A stretch of DNA of 38,097 nt from Asaia bogorensis. Its GTDB lineage: Bacteria; Pseudomonadota; Alphaproteobacteria; Acetobacterales; Acetobacteraceae. This document shows, piece by piece, positions 2,606 through 38,097 of the stretch. Position 1 is the first letter of the stretch, and the number at the start of each line of letters is the position of its first letter. The stretch lies in contig CAMCDA010000019.1 of NCBI GenBank assembly GCA_945873195.1, positions 1 to 38,097 of the forward strand, in the 5' to 3' direction. The translations under genes and the position numbers were made by a program. The notes under the pieces were generated by a model. The model was not told the origin of the DNA, searched no databases, and was given only the letters and a program-made list of their open reading frames with translations.

Positions 2606-2911
2606 TCAGAAATCGTACTCGTCGGACAGTGCGGTCAGGTTGGCCAGGGCTTTACGCTGCTCCAGCGCGTGGGCCGCCTGATAGGCCAGGACGTCGGCGC
2701 GGGAAAGCTTGTTACGGGAGGCGACCTTACGGGGGCAGAGAAAGCCCATCTTTATCAGACGCATGACAGAGGGGCGGGACACCTGGAGGATCTTGGCTGC
2801 CTCTCGGGGTGTGATTGCATCAACGACCGCGGACGCGTGAACGGCTTCACTGCGGTACTGGGTCTCGGATTTGGACATCGCTAACGTATCGACCTCGATC
2901 CTGCTTTTCAT
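2606..2911 (-). CDS. Excisionase/MerR-like HTH protein, antitoxin type, orphan
   Basis: This is a small DNA-binding protein. The segment ITPREAAKILQVSRPSVMRL is a winged helix-turn-helix of the excisionase type. It is followed by a DVLAYQ block and a charged tail ending LTALSDEYDF. This layout matches antitoxins that pair with PIN-domain toxins, where the tail binds the toxin. The toxin is normally immediately downstream, but here the 120 bp downstream hold no such gene. I chose the ATG at 2911; the frame is open upstream to 2986, and an ATG at 2878 would also keep the HTH. Base composition is lower in GC than in the flanks. Function as a self-repressing antitoxin is inferred. It could also be a free-standing regulator. 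Confidence 0.65.
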   Translation of the reverse strand: MKSRIEVDTLAMSKSETQYRSEAVHASAVVDAITPREAAKILQVSRPSVMRLIKMGFLCPRKVASRNKLSRADVLAYQAAHALEQRKALANLTALSDEYDF

Positions 2912-3052
2912 GACTTCATACCGCCGCAGACTACGCAGAAAGAATCGTAGATAATCCGACAGAATGCAATCTGTGGGCCCCTGCATGGGTGGTGGCTCTG
3001 TCGAGCTCGGGCGCAGCCTGCAGCAATCGCCGGGTGATTCTGGCGATCTCTC

Positions 3053-3080: not shown

Positions 3081-3619
3081 AGTTACCGACGCATGAGTTC
3101 AGGCAACACGTCCCGGACGACCAATTCTGAGTTCTCCTCTCGAATTCTAAGCTTTACGGGAATTTTCTTTTCGACGGGTTGTCGTAAGTTACGGCCATGC
3201 ACCCTGACCGTGATACATCCGCCGTTACGAGGCAACGAATCAAGCCAAGCAACAACCGGTATTCGCCAGATCTCTGGACCTATACGGTGCCGCAGAACAG
3301 AGCATTCAAAAGCCCAAACTTTCGAATGGGAGGTCGCCGGACGTCCCTTCCAATAAAAAGCTTCTGGATCGTGCCTGGGGATCTCCGGCAATTGCGATAG
3401 TAGCGGCAAAAATGGTGAAGGATTCGACATGTCCCTCGGCAGACCGCTCCAAGTGGGATCTGCAAAATTTATCCCATATGAATCTGTGTAATTCTTAATA
3501 GAATCAATATGGGGGCCGATTATACCTCTTAATTTTTCTTCAGTTGCCATCATGGCTCTGATACCAGCGTGCTGTGCCAACGTATCCGCCGGTAATGCCA
3601 TTCGGAAAGTGTTGGCATT

Positions 3620-3744
3620 ATGCAAAGAACCTAGTGGATAGAACCTGACGCTTGGTTCCGGCCTGTAGACTGCCAGAACGGCCGGATTCCGCCATTCTCA
3701 TGGGACTCTTCCGTTTGATTTTATCCACTAGTCCAAAGCCTTTT
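3620..3744. mobile_element. MITE-like insertion B (about 125 bp) in PIN gene
   Basis: The segment lies between direct copies of GCATT (3615-3619 and 3745-3749). It contains the inverted repeat CTAGTGGATA (3631-3640) / TATCCACTAG (3722-3731) and an inner GGTTCCGGCC / GGCCGGATTCC palindrome, so it could fold on itself. The outer ends also share ATGCAAA in inverted orientation, so the exact boundary is ambiguous by a few bases. Deleting 130 bp joins DTLRNA to NTFRMALP in one frame. It differs in sequence from insertion A. Confidence 0.7.
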
Positions 3745-4069
3745 GCATTGCGCAGCGTATCTAGTGGTGACGCATCGCTTGAACTCTGCCGTCGGTAAAT
3801 TTTCTTCCATCTCGGAGCGATCGGAGGGACGCCAAGAACCGGGCGTTGCCCCGTGGTTTTTGTCCCACGCTGGTTGTGGTCTTGATTGCTGTCGTCTACG
3901 CGGCGCGTATTCTTGAAGGCCAAGCCGTCGCTAACCTCGAACGTTACCCACACACTTTCAGCGGGCGCAGTGCCCTCATTCGATAGTGCCAATTCAAATC
4001 TGGCTTCGAACGCGGGCTCCTGTTTCACAGCCGGCTGGGTCCGCATCAGATCTCGAGCCCTCTCGACCC

Positions 4070-4279
4070 TCATGACTCCCCTCATTTTTGATTCCCGCAT
4101 TACTATGTCCATGCAGGCCGCGACTCTCCTGGACACCGCTTTTTGTATCAGGCTGGGTTACGTGACTCGGGGTGTGACCCGTTCAGCTGGCCCAGCTTCC
4201 CGTTGCAGGTGGCGGGACGACTTGGCATACCAACCTACTACCTTGGAATCACAGAATAAAAAATGAGGGGATGGCTGAG
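4070..4279. mobile_element. MITE-like insertion A (210 bp) in PIN gene
   Basis: This non-coding 210-bp segment is flanked by direct copies of CTCTCGACCC (4060-4069 and 4280-4289), which looks like a 10-bp target duplication. Near its ends are perfect 12-bp inverted repeats, CCCCTCATTTTT at 4078-4089 and AAAAATGAGGGG at 4259-4270. It contains no plausible protein. Removing it with one repeat copy rejoins GEWVE to RARDLM in frame. A non-autonomous element mobilised by an unseen transposase is the simplest reading. Confidence 0.78.
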
Positions 4280-5133
4280 CTCTCGACCCACTCTCCATAG
4301 GCTGTGCGATAGGTTGTGATCTGCTTTTCCGTTGGACCGACCCAGTCGAACGGTTCAGCAAGGTCTGCCAAATCAAATGGACGGGGAGATCGTATGGACG
4401 GATTCGTCTTGCTGTCCTCGTCCGGACGCGGGAACTCGATCACGCAGGGGTAAGCCGTTGTTAACTCCTCAACGAGCATCGCGATTTTTTCGGTGGTCAA
4501 GTCGGGATATTTGGAAACCTCGATGATGATCTCTTTGACCACCTGAGTCCCGATCTTCGCTGTTAGCGTAACCTCAGGGCCACGCTTGCGCTCCTTCGCC
4601 AACTCCTCCTCTAATCGCTTTATAGTCCTCGCCCGCGAGTCTGGCTCCTCAGGCAGACCCCAATCATCTTTTATGCGAACCGAAGTCAGGCCATGCCGCT
4701 TAGCTTTCAACAACGGCCCAGTGTCCGCTGTTAAGATAGCACATTGCTGACCGTTGGCTGTAGACTTATAAGCGAGTACATCTGCTATGTACTTGTCATC
4801 ACCCAGATTGTGCGACTCAAGGTCGTTCGGAGGTATCCATCCGAGCGGGCGCTCAACCTGCAGATCGACTATAACCTTCGGGCCAGTTGCACGCAAAATT
4901 TTCGGGCCTCCGGTGTCGACGATCTCCCCTAAAATCGATGCCCACTTGCGTGCCCTGTCCTGCGCTCGACCACGGAGCTCGAACTTCTTCTTGTCCAACT
5001 CACGCGCGGTGTTGTCACATATCAGAAGGATGACGGTATCGTCTGACGTCACAGTCGCCCAGGGTATCTCGGGCGGATCCCTAAAGTGCAGGAAAAAATT
5101 TGTGTCGGGAAAGAAGATCATTGCGAGCGCCAA

Positions 5134-5340: not shown

Positions 5341-5847
5341 TCACCCCACCGACAAAATCTCCTCCACATAATCCGGATCCCGCTCGATCACGCGCAGCAA
5401 GCTCCGAGCCATCGGGTCAGGCGCCCGCCGCCGACTCTCCCAATTCCGCAGCGCGTCAGGATCAATCCGGAACCGCAGTGCGAACTGTTCCTGCGTCAGC
5501 CCCAACCGCTCCCGGATCGCTTTCACATCCACGGTGTCCGGCGGCGCGGCGACGCTTGCCACGACCCCCATCCCGCGCAGGGTCTCGATCAACCCGGCGA
5601 CGTCCTCCACCACCGGCAGCCGCACATAGGCCCTGCCGCTATCCAGCATTTCCTCCAGCGTCCGCTTGGCCCGCAACAGCGGGATACCACGCCGGGCAAG
5701 TTCAATCGCCGCCGACACGGTCTTAAGCTGCGCGCGATCCGCCACCGGAACCAGAAGCAGGCTTGCGGGTGAACCGGAGACGACCCGGTCGATGCCCCGG
5801 ACGGGCCCCAGTCGTTCGAACCGCTCCCTCAATGACAAGCTGGTCAT
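5341..5847 (-). CDS. HTH (XRE-type C-terminal domain) regulator, antitoxin-like
   Basis: The 168-aa protein has a C-terminal Cro/C1-type helix-turn-helix at about residues 108-155 (IRERLGLTQEQFALRF followed by DALRNWESRRRAPD). The first 100 residues form a separate mixed alpha/beta region. The tail ARSLLRVIERDP is typical of HigA/MqsA-like antitoxins, in which this HTH binds the operator. The start is supported by AGGAG nine bases before the ATG. The start lies 125 nt inside the preceding gene in another frame, so the two are translationally coupled. The partner is not a recognisable RelE/HigB toxin, so a toxin-antitoxin role is only a possibility. Confidence 0.8.
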   Translation of the reverse strand: MTSLSLRERFERLGPVRGIDRVVSGSPASLLLVPVADRAQLKTVSAAIELARRGIPLLRAKRTLEEMLDSGRAYVRLPVVEDVAGLIETLRGMGVVASVAAPPDTVDVKAIRERLGLTQEQFALRFRIDPDALRNWESRRRAPDPMARSLLRVIERDPDYVEEILSVG

Positions 5848-6103
5848 AATCCATCTCCTGCAAGATCAGCTGGGCAAGGATACGCAGGTTGCCCGCCCCG
5901 ACCGTATTCGGCCCCAGGCCTTCGCCGTGCATGTGCAAGCCGCTGGCGATCAGCGTGGTGCCGTTCTGCGTCACGTCGGCCATCACCAACAGCACCCCAT
6001 CCGGCGTAATCACGCGTAACGTCATCACCGGGTCGTCGATGCTGTCGTCCTGAGGCTCGAACCGGATCGTGTCGGGGTCCCACACGGGATAGCAGTACGC
6101 CAC
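5723..6103 (-). CDS. Conserved hypothetical protein upstream of HTH gene
   Basis: The 126-aa protein has no assignable function. The C-terminal half contains a block that I recognise only as recurring in alphaproteobacterial hypothetical proteins: LVIEGAVRTTGARPGHRPG followed by RLRFTRKP. The N-terminal part is predicted beta-rich with no signal peptide or membrane segment. It starts with GTG at 6103; no convincing ribosome site is close, and other starts are possible. Its last 125 nt overlap the HTH gene in a different frame. Both frames look conserved there: the RTTG block lies before or at the overlap, and FERLGPVR lies in the HTH frame. Co-transcription is nearly certain. Confidence 0.65.
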   Translation of the reverse strand: MAYCYPVWDPDTIRFEPQDDSIDDPVMTLRVITPDGVLLVMADVTQNGTTLIASGLHMHGEGLGPNTVGAGNLRILAQLILQEMDYDQLVIEGAVRTTGARPGHRPGRLRFTRKPASGSGGGSRAA

Positions 6104-16496: not shown

Positions 16497-18365
16497 ATGA
16501 CCGCATCAATCCGAATCGACGACAAGACGGGCCTGAAGATTTTCAATACCCGCGCCGCCAAGGCAAGCGAGAAGATCGCCGGCAAGGGCTATTCCCCGAT
16601 CGCGGACGAAGCGCTGATCACGCTGCCGCCGCCTCCGCCCGGCGCGGTGTTCAACGCCGAGGAGCAGGCCAAGTACCGCGAGTACAAGGAATCCCGGAAG
16701 GGTGCCGCCGACTACATCACCATGGAAGGTGAGTTTTCGAAGTACCTGGAAGACGTCTACTCCGCCCCGCCGATCGAGCGCGACGCCCTGACCGACGATT
16801 GTGAGATCGTTATCATCGGCGCGGGCTTCGCCGCGCTGATCCTGTGGTACAAGCTGCGCGACGCCGGCTTCAAGGATGTGCGCGTCTGCGAGAAGGGCGG
16901 CGACGTAGGCGGCACCTGGTACTGGAACCGCTACCCCGGCATCGCCTGCGACGTTGAATCCTACAGCTATTTCCCGCTGCTGGAGGAGATGGGCTACTTC
17001 CCAACCATGAAGTTCGCCTCCGGCTTCGAAATCCTCGAATACTGCCAGCTGATGGCCGAAAAGCTCGATTTCTACGATCGCTGCCTGTTCCACACGACGG
17101 TCGAGCGCACCGAATGGGACCAGGAAGCCGGCCGCTGGACCGTGTCCACCAACCGCGGCGACAAAATGCGCGCGCGCTATGTCGTGCTGGCCAACGGATC
17201 CCTCACCACGCCGAAGCTCGCCCGGATCGAGGGCATGGAGACCTTCAAGGGGGAAGCCTTCCATACCTCCCGCTGGAACTACCATGTTGATCTGGCCGGC
17301 AAGCGCGTCGGCATCATCGGCACCGGCGCCAGCGCCGTGCAGGTGGTCCCGGAAATCGCCAAGGTGGTGAAGGAACTCTATGTGTTCCAGCGCACCCCCT
17401 CCACGATCGACGTGCGCGACCAGCGCGTGACCACACAGGAAGAAATCGAAACTTGGTCCAAGGAGCCCAACTGGGCGAAGCAGCGGCGGGAACGCCTGGC
17501 CCAGATTTCCTCCGGCCGCACCGCGCTGAAGGGCAACGACGACTACCTGTCGGGCAAAGTCACCGCCGTCCGCGAAAAGCGGGTGTTCGATCGTGAATTG
17601 TCGCCCGACGAACTGATGGAGCGGCAGCTCAACACCAACTTCCGCATCATGGAACAGATCCGCGCCCGCGTGGATGCGATCGTCAAGGATCCGAAGACCG
17701 CCGCCGCGCTCAAGCCCTACTACGCCTATGGCTGCAAGCGGCCGACCTTCCATGATGAGTATCTGCCGTCCTTCAACCTGCCGCATGTTCACCTGATCGA
17801 CACCGCCCCCGTGGGCGTCAGCCGAATCAACGAACGCGGCGTGGTGCATGACGGCGTGGAGTACCCGGTCGACGTGCTGATCTACGCGACCGGCTTCCAG
17901 TGGATGGGCGCGGGTTCGTTCAACATGATCGTCGGGCGCGACGGCCGCACGCTGCGCGGGAAATGGGCCGATGAAGGCGTCAAGACCTTCCTGGGCCTGC
18001 ACAGCCACGGCTTCCCCAACCTGTTCATCATGTCCGGCCCGCAGAGCGGCGGCGGCCAGTTCAACTTCACCCGCACGATGGAAGGCCAGACCGACTACGT
18101 GGCCTGGCTGCTGAAGACCTCACGCGACCGTGGCAACAGCATCATCGACGTCGATAAGGACGCCGAGGTCGCCTACGCGGAACATTGCGCCGAAGCCGAC
18201 ATCCGGACCCGGCCGTTCCGCGACTGCCTGTCCTACTACAATGGTGACGGAAACGCGCAGCCAGGCAGCCTCGCCTATTACGGCGGGCCGCAGAAGTGGC
18301 ACGAGATCCGTATGAAGGCGCAGGAAACCCTGGAACCCTACGTGTTCGAGGAAGCCCGGGCCTAG
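16497..18365 (+). CDS. Flavin-containing monooxygenase, Baeyer-Villiger type
   Basis: The 622-aa FAD/NADPH enzyme would insert oxygen next to a ketone or oxidise a heteroatom. An N-terminal extension (1-100) precedes the FAD site VIIGAGFAAL (105-114), followed by GGDVGGTWYWNRYPG. The BVMO fingerprint is present as F250-x-G252-x3-H256-x3-W260, but the usual following proline is Asn261. The NADPH Rossmann motif is GIIGTGASAVQ, and a late ATGF block is present. A paralogue of similar length lies 8 kb downstream (26120). It is probably first in an operon with the enoyl-CoA hydratase and citryl-CoA-lyase-like genes. The substrate is not predictable. Confidence 0.9.
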   Translation: MTASIRIDDKTGLKIFNTRAAKASEKIAGKGYSPIADEALITLPPPPPGAVFNAEEQAKYREYKESRKGAADYITMEGEFSKYLEDVYSAPPIERDALTDDCEIVIIGAGFAALILWYKLRDAGFKDVRVCEKGGDVGGTWYWNRYPGIACDVESYSYFPLLEEMGYFPTMKFASGFEILEYCQLMAEKLDFYDRCLFHTTVERTEWDQEAGRWTVSTNRGDKMRARYVVLANGSLTTPKLARIEGMETFKGEAFHTSRWNYHVDLAGKRVGIIGTGASAVQVVPEIAKVVKELYVFQRTPSTIDVRDQRVTTQEEIETWSKEPNWAKQRRERLAQISSGRTALKGNDDYLSGKVTAVREKRVFDRELSPDELMERQLNTNFRIMEQIRARVDAIVKDPKTAAALKPYYAYGCKRPTFHDEYLPSFNLPHVHLIDTAPVGVSRINERGVVHDGVEYPVDVLIYATGFQWMGAGSFNMIVGRDGRTLRGKWADEGVKTFLGLHSHGFPNLFIMSGPQSGGGQFNFTRTMEGQTDYVAWLLKTSRDRGNSIIDVDKDAEVAYAEHCAEADIRTRPFRDCLSYYNGDGNAQPGSLAYYGGPQKWHEIRMKAQETLEPYVFEEARA

Positions 18366-37952: not shown

Positions 37953-38097
37953 GTAACTCCCAAGCCCCCCACCGTGAGCAAGAAAGGCGCTCGTGGAGGT
38001 ACGGCGGGGCCAGCGTTATCCGGATAAAGCGAGGATGAGTGAAGCCGGCGTGGTCGAGAGGGCCGTGAGAAGATTCCAACCTTGTTTCCGGGCGGTG
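37953..38097 (-). repeat. Right copy of 145-bp terminal inverted repeat
   Basis: This is the perfect inverted copy of positions 3-147. The inner edge is at 37953 (GTAACTCCCAAG inward to outward), and the match runs to the last base of the window, so the element probably continues outside. The two copies present the same tip inward. That implies two oppositely oriented copies of one element, not the short terminal repeats of a single insertion sequence. Confidence 0.9.

Follow-up and report, generated by a model that had tools for sequence, protein, structure and literature searches.

Insertion sequences and MITEs of the IS4 family have terminal inverted repeats and are bordered by a constant 9-bp duplication. 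Elements of the IS630/Tc1-mariner group, together with the MITEs derived from them, show a TA within CTAG at both ends, and Tenzen and Ohtsubo are said to have described, in 1991, a preference for TA in CTAG. Duplication of TA is a trait of the IS630 family according to PMC2170065. A bacterial MITE of comparable kind is MITEAba12 of the Moraxellaceae, which is presented (PMC6382973) as non-autonomous, IS-derived and spread within one bacterial group. Of the two elements described below, one has the IS4-family traits and the other those of the IS630 group; both resemble MITEAba12 by description, although their host belongs to another group. A search of titles and abstracts found no publication on either element; since subscription papers lie mostly outside such a search, this absence is unproven.

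The window, that is, the whole stretch of 38,097 nucleotides analysed here, is contig C19 of an Asaia bogorensis genome of 5.45 Mb in 400 contigs. We consider it very probable that a gene in this window, encoding a PIN_4-domain protein of ~570 aa and probably acquired horizontally, was broken by two independent insertions, one of an IS4-type MITE (element 1) and one of an IS630-type MITE (element 2) (Table 1). Two unrelated mobile insertions in one gene had been proposed in an initial annotation made from the sequence alone, and this view is borne out by further copies of the elements, by target duplications and by an intact homologue. The event is ordinary gene decay through mobile DNA, and the locus offers a clean case of an accessory gene decayed through two MITE families.

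Table 1. Features of the interrupted gene and of the two elements (positions in the window)
Feature	Position	Strand	Remarks
Interrupted gene for a putative PIN_4-domain protein	3083–5121	−	Frames, domain match, 558-aa homologues in three Roseomonas-group genomes
Putative PIN_4 domain, complete	4675–5109	−	Residues 9–153 of the 294-aa frame 4249–5133; upstream of both insertions
Gene, 5′ part (PIN domain and linker)	4289–5121	−	Frames and homologue alignment
Target duplication of element 1, copy beside the 5′ part	4280–4288		9 bp, CTCTCGACC
Element 1, MITE without transposase	4069–4279		211 bp; IS4-type ends CTCA...TCCCCTCATTTTT
Target duplication of element 1, second copy	4060–4068		9 bp, CTCTCGACC
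Gene, middle part, between the elements	3732–4059	−	Frames and homologue alignment
CTAG at one end of element 2	3728–3731		Duplicated TA at 3729–3730
Element 2, MITE	3634–3728		95 bp; IS630-type ends GTGGATA...TATCCAC
CTAG at the other end of element 2	3631–3634		Duplicated TA at 3632–3633; G is the first element base
Gene, 3′ part	3083–3630	−	Frames and homologue alignment

The interrupted gene and its homologues

The three minus-strand frames running from 5121 to 3083 had been read as one gene, and they do encode a single protein in order, from its N-terminal through its middle to its C-terminal part, since an uninterrupted homologue of 558 aa (L035) covers all three pieces of the window, each aligned separately. 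There are three such full-length homologues (L035–L037 in G012, G130 and G194; L053–L055 as named records), near-identical to one another and of the same length across junction 1, where element 1 sits. Their hosts were identified by a scan of named genomes with the homologue as query as Roseomonas sp. KE0001, Pseudoroseomonas aestuarii and P. rhizosphaerae; the scan with the N-terminal piece of the window as query found no relative in the named genomes. NCBI taxonomy places Roseomonas in the Roseomonadaceae and Pseudoroseomonas in the Acetobacteraceae, both in the Acetobacterales, so that kinship with the genome of the window is claimed at the rank of order.

The distribution of the gene is patchy. 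At a threshold of 1e-10 the N-terminal piece has matches in 6 of 299 genomes of the order, its own genome counted; three belong to a single genus and show 49% identity over residues 1–282, inside the uninterrupted frame, while two are distant, at 28%. Matches to the C-terminal piece occur in 6 of 397 genomes of the family, again counting its own. The three genomes of that single genus give 44%, and two others give weak, partial matches, which are all that these 397 genomes add to the known three homologues for judging junction 2. The conserved region of the 3′ part, residues 73–174 of a 180-aa frame, shares 44% identity with the homologue. Two Robbsia plasmids also carry relatives, at 27% over residues 2–325 of the homologue. 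Across the genus the gene was matched in only 2 of 33 genomes, its own and the congener G313, the latter over a stretch of 63 residues. These are the first 63 residues of a related PIN protein, matched at 46% identity in a 147-aa frame (L121; G313:C191, 1246–1689, minus strand), and perhaps mark a truncated remnant.

The homologue contains neither inserted segment and continues past the position of 4249, where a natural end of the protein might have been suspected. Around junction 1, from a conserved tryptophan to a PEF/PAF motif, the homologue and the window pieces are gapless and occupy the same columns. The uninterrupted alignment expected of the spliced protein was thus obtained over junction 1 but not over junction 2, which falls in an unconserved stretch that cannot be aligned with the homologue. 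From a KIYR motif to an EDFYW/EAFYW motif the homologue has 98 residues; the same interval in the window comes to 114 after subtraction of 97 bp for element 2, or to 103 after subtraction of 130 bp. Because junction 2 is unalignable and the spacing of these anchors lies nearer the length first proposed, the homologue leaves undecided where element 2 begins and ends; this is settled by the other copies of the element. Further copies were found in the genome for each of the two segments, a check suggested in the initial annotation. No empty-site allele of the PIN_4 gene was found among the 33 genomes of the genus. Evidence of the empty-site type comes instead from another locus for element 2, a homogentisate dioxygenase gene, and from target duplications for element 1.

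With 220 and 97 bp discounted, the undisturbed frame would by length alone encode 573 aa, not 562 as first calculated. Each element shifts the reading by a single base, and a stop follows about nine codons into the sequence brought by element 1; a truncated protein with the PIN domain, upstream of both elements, could still be made. The order and age of the insertions, as well as the loss of function, are inferred. Apart from both insertions, the gene pieces contain no other stop or frameshift, so that the decay looks recent.

Assignment to the PIN_4 family is weak, since the match of the first frame to PF13638 in a Pfam profile search (24.0 bits) is near the cut-off of 21.9 and homologue L035 has no Pfam match at E 0.001. 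The PIN protein was recognized neither by an NCBIfam model nor by a toxin model at the respective cut-off, nor by PADLOC models at E 0.01; a PDB sequence search with the homologue gave no match at E up to 0.1. A VapC-type toxin is a short protein of about 130 aa made up of a PIN domain, unlike the homologue, with its 558 aa and conserved C-terminal region.

Limits, copies and relatives of the two elements

Element 1 had been described as 210 bp bracketed by a 10-bp repeat. The insertion is real and the net length of 220 bp is retained, but the true limits are 211 bp with a 9-bp duplication. The genome contains 31 matches to the element, 27 of which reach a contig end, most after 145–155 bp, as expected where an assembly breaks at a repeat; element 1 explains part of the fragmentation into 400 pieces. 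Fifteen left and 16 right flanks, from 30 loci, could be read. The base directly before TCATGAC is C in all 15 left flanks, and the element therefore starts at 4069. Exact 9-bp duplications are shared by seven left/right flank pairs, none with one mismatch, as compared with a mean of 0.001 matches per trial for shuffled flanks. The tenth base of the proposed repeat is a chance match, none of the seven pairs reaching 10 bp. As the flanks hold 24 distinct 9-mers, between 16 and 24 sites have been sampled. Eight left and nine right flanks are unpaired, which could be explained by contigs missing from the assembly or, alternatively, by rearrangement. In one degenerate copy (L004) the alignment begins only after the first 21 bases of the element.

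Elsewhere in the genus, where 3 of 33 genomes including its own contain element 1, G301 has it in nine places (85–99%) and G311 in two (72–73%). Three of the G301 copies have an identical 9-bp duplication and similar flanks, and may therefore go back to a single insertion that was multiplied along with a larger repeat; of the two G311 copies, only one is bordered by a 9-bp duplication. A plasmid search with element 1 gave no match at E 0.01.

A candidate source of the transposition activity is an IS4-family element of ~1.27 kb in the same genome (G000:C334), with a transposase gene between ends that match those of element 1 (95% over 19 bp and 90% over 20 bp). Its open frame of 387 aa matches the IS4 transposase model NF033591 with 230.5 bits (cut-off 152); a PDB sequence search with this transposase gave no match at E up to 1. 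Element 1, by contrast, has 211 bp and no transposase, and only the outer 19–20 bases agree. It was probably moved by this IS4 transposase or a similar one, which would have inserted it through a 9-bp staggered cut. The ends of element 1 presumably resemble those of IS10.

Four of the six other paired element 1 sites also split genes in continuous phase. In an AMP-binding enzyme the match to the profile reaches position 193 on one side and resumes at 202 on the other, and both sides of a GMC oxidoreductase match the C-terminal model. An MmgE/PrpD gene is above the cut-off with the C-terminal model and below it with the N-terminal one. Only the left piece of a sulfatase gene finds a match, its 48-residue right piece matching nothing. 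The remaining two sites have no such split gene.

Element 2 is likewise a real insertion, and the CTAGTGGATA inverted repeats noticed initially are its ends, but the proposed 125 bp with a 5-bp repeat were wrong. The genome has three copies (C19, C258 and C316), which do not differ at any of the 101 bp between and including the two CTAG (3631–3731 here) and have unrelated flanks. The gene has thus gained a net 97 bp instead of 130. Restoration of the frame on removal of 130 bp had been taken as support for the larger figure; this test was passed with a wrong length, being blind between the two values because both are 1 mod 3. Both ends read CTAG, and from what is typical of the family the duplication would be the 2-bp TA rather than 4 bp. 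The C258 copy (4460–4560; L032/L179) sits in the homogentisate dioxygenase gene. Its flanks, joined so that a single CTAG remains, are gapless across the site when compared with PDB 3zds and 1ey2, which again gives a net insertion of 97 bp. This dioxygenase gene also bears a separate nonsense codon.

Element 2 occurs in 6 of 33 genomes of the genus, including its own. Its relatives in G301, G303, G311 and G317 are 71–95% identical over at least 99 of the 101 bp, and G312 has a partial match of 53 nt; a full-length relative (76%) lies on a Rhodovastum atsumiense plasmid. CTAG is present at both ends in all three own-genome copies and in the relatives L084 and L085, while L086 has CTGG at one end, L087 has ATAG at both and L088 is partial.

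The congener G304 contains, on contig C99, a 1145-bp element whose ends match those of element 2 and whose transposase part matches the IS630 model NF033545 (164.4 bits, cut-off 100); the transposase frame is interrupted and one outer CTAG has decayed. A relative with matching ends, its sequence containing undetermined bases, is found in G304:C114. No IS630 with element 2 ends was found in the own genome, where one of four DDE_3 loci is 26% identical to the G304 transposase and three have no match. Element 2 differs from IS630 elements in its 95 bp and lack of a transposase, and was probably moved by an IS630 (Tc1/mariner-group) transposase, which would have inserted it at the TA of CTAG. Palindromic units of ~46 bp with the TAGTGGATA ends of element 2 (L093, L128, L130 and L133–L136, in G302 and G311) suggest a wider family of miniature IS630 derivatives.

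Alternative explanations of the interrupted gene

The earlier delimitation of element 2, as 125 bp with a 5-bp duplication of AATGC (3615–3619 and 3745–3749), has in its favour that this motif is found on both sides, that the frame is preserved and that the spacing between anchors comes closer to that of the homologue. It is nevertheless very unlikely to be correct: the three copies share their end bases, stopping at CTAG, in unrelated flanks, and the copy in the dioxygenase gene nets 97 bp. The AATGC repeat is attributable to chance, since among 5000 pairs of 30-bp stretches drawn at random from the window 56% had a 5-mer in common; the flanks of one other element 2 copy share no 5-mer and those of the second share three others. 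It is harder still to maintain that the two segments are functional features of the gene, such as a programmed frameshift, an intron or a recoding signal. They do have inverted-repeat ends, and long stems are predicted in both by folding without a shuffled control, but the homologue dispenses with either segment, copies lie elsewhere in unrelated genes, and no Rfam match at gathering score was obtained between 2500 and 5500. We regard this last reading as next to impossible.

Two MITE insertions in one gene could also have been kept because the intact PIN protein was costly, for instance as a toxin having lost its antitoxin. PIN domains are found in toxins of toxin–antitoxin systems, the G313 relative matches over its first 63 residues only, and HTH genes flank the locus on both sides, one of them MqsA/NadS-like though below model cut-offs. 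Yet the PIN domain itself was left whole, neither NCBIfam nor PADLOC models recognize the protein at the thresholds given above, and element 2 is also found inside the homogentisate dioxygenase gene. Since element 1 moreover splits the sulfatase, AMP-binding enzyme, GMC oxidoreductase and MmgE/PrpD genes, four unrelated enzyme genes, the PIN_4 gene is no special target. Of the two options offered by the initial annotation, selection against the intact protein consequently finds no support and appears improbable. The other, relaxed selection, is favoured by the patchy distribution and low GC of the gene and by the position of both elements in DNA that is poorer in GC than the genome sample.

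Base composition, target supply and neighbouring sequences

The gene segments have 48.9–56.7% GC as compared with 65.2% for the window. At third positions GC amounts to 61.7% in the first part of the gene and 47.2% in the last, while two other genes in the window reach 86.3% and 90.0%. The flanks of element 2 are lower in GC than 1,082 genome windows of 500 bp (P = 4e-5), a comparison of six non-independent flanks of three sites, one of them 144 bp long; for element 1 the mean GC over 31 flanks is 61.8% versus 66.1% (P = 5e-7). Low GC around both elements fits insertion or survival in dispensable DNA.

The density of CTAG targets may help to explain why element 2 landed in the PIN_4 gene. In 581,155 bases (38 stretches of the genome plus the window, with long contigs overrepresented) there are 112 CTAG sites, where base composition would lead one to expect 1,827 and trinucleotide counts 382; the motif is ~16 times rarer in this sample than base composition predicts. 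When counted by 1-kb window, in a sample that includes the window bearing the PIN_4 gene, 15 sites fall in 22 windows below 60% GC and 94 in the 554 others (P = 9e-6), a fourfold higher density in the low-GC DNA. Four CTAG sites are present in the 38,097-nt window: two are the ends of element 2, one is at 3761 in the PIN_4 gene and one at 18362. If the duplicate made by element 2 itself is excluded, two of three lie in the PIN_4 gene. One may speculate that CTAG scarcity steers the IS630-type element into newly acquired low-GC genes first, making it an unintended genome cleaner; if this held across genomes, target choice by transposons would act as a passive filter against foreign genes. We think this rather doubtful. 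The idea rests on three own-genome insertions of element 2, for which target supply and survival of the insertion are inseparable. There is no CTAG among the seven paired targets of element 1, and the same low-GC tendency of this element counts against steering; survival alone may suffice.

The neighbourhood of the gene includes an excisionase-type HTH protein (2606–2986, minus strand; PF12728, 33.4 bits, cut-off 27) and, on the other side, an HTH protein resembling the NadS/MqsA antitoxins, below model cut-offs (5341–5847, minus strand). The latter frame is overlapped by another, 5723–6103, which has no Pfam match. The contig ends at 3–147 and 37953–38097 are inverted copies of one 145-bp sequence, which means that the assembly is interrupted at this contig by a further repeat. 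The right flank of three element 1 copies in G301 (L057, L060 and L062) resembles the inner end, CTTGGGAGTTAC, of this 145-bp repeat.
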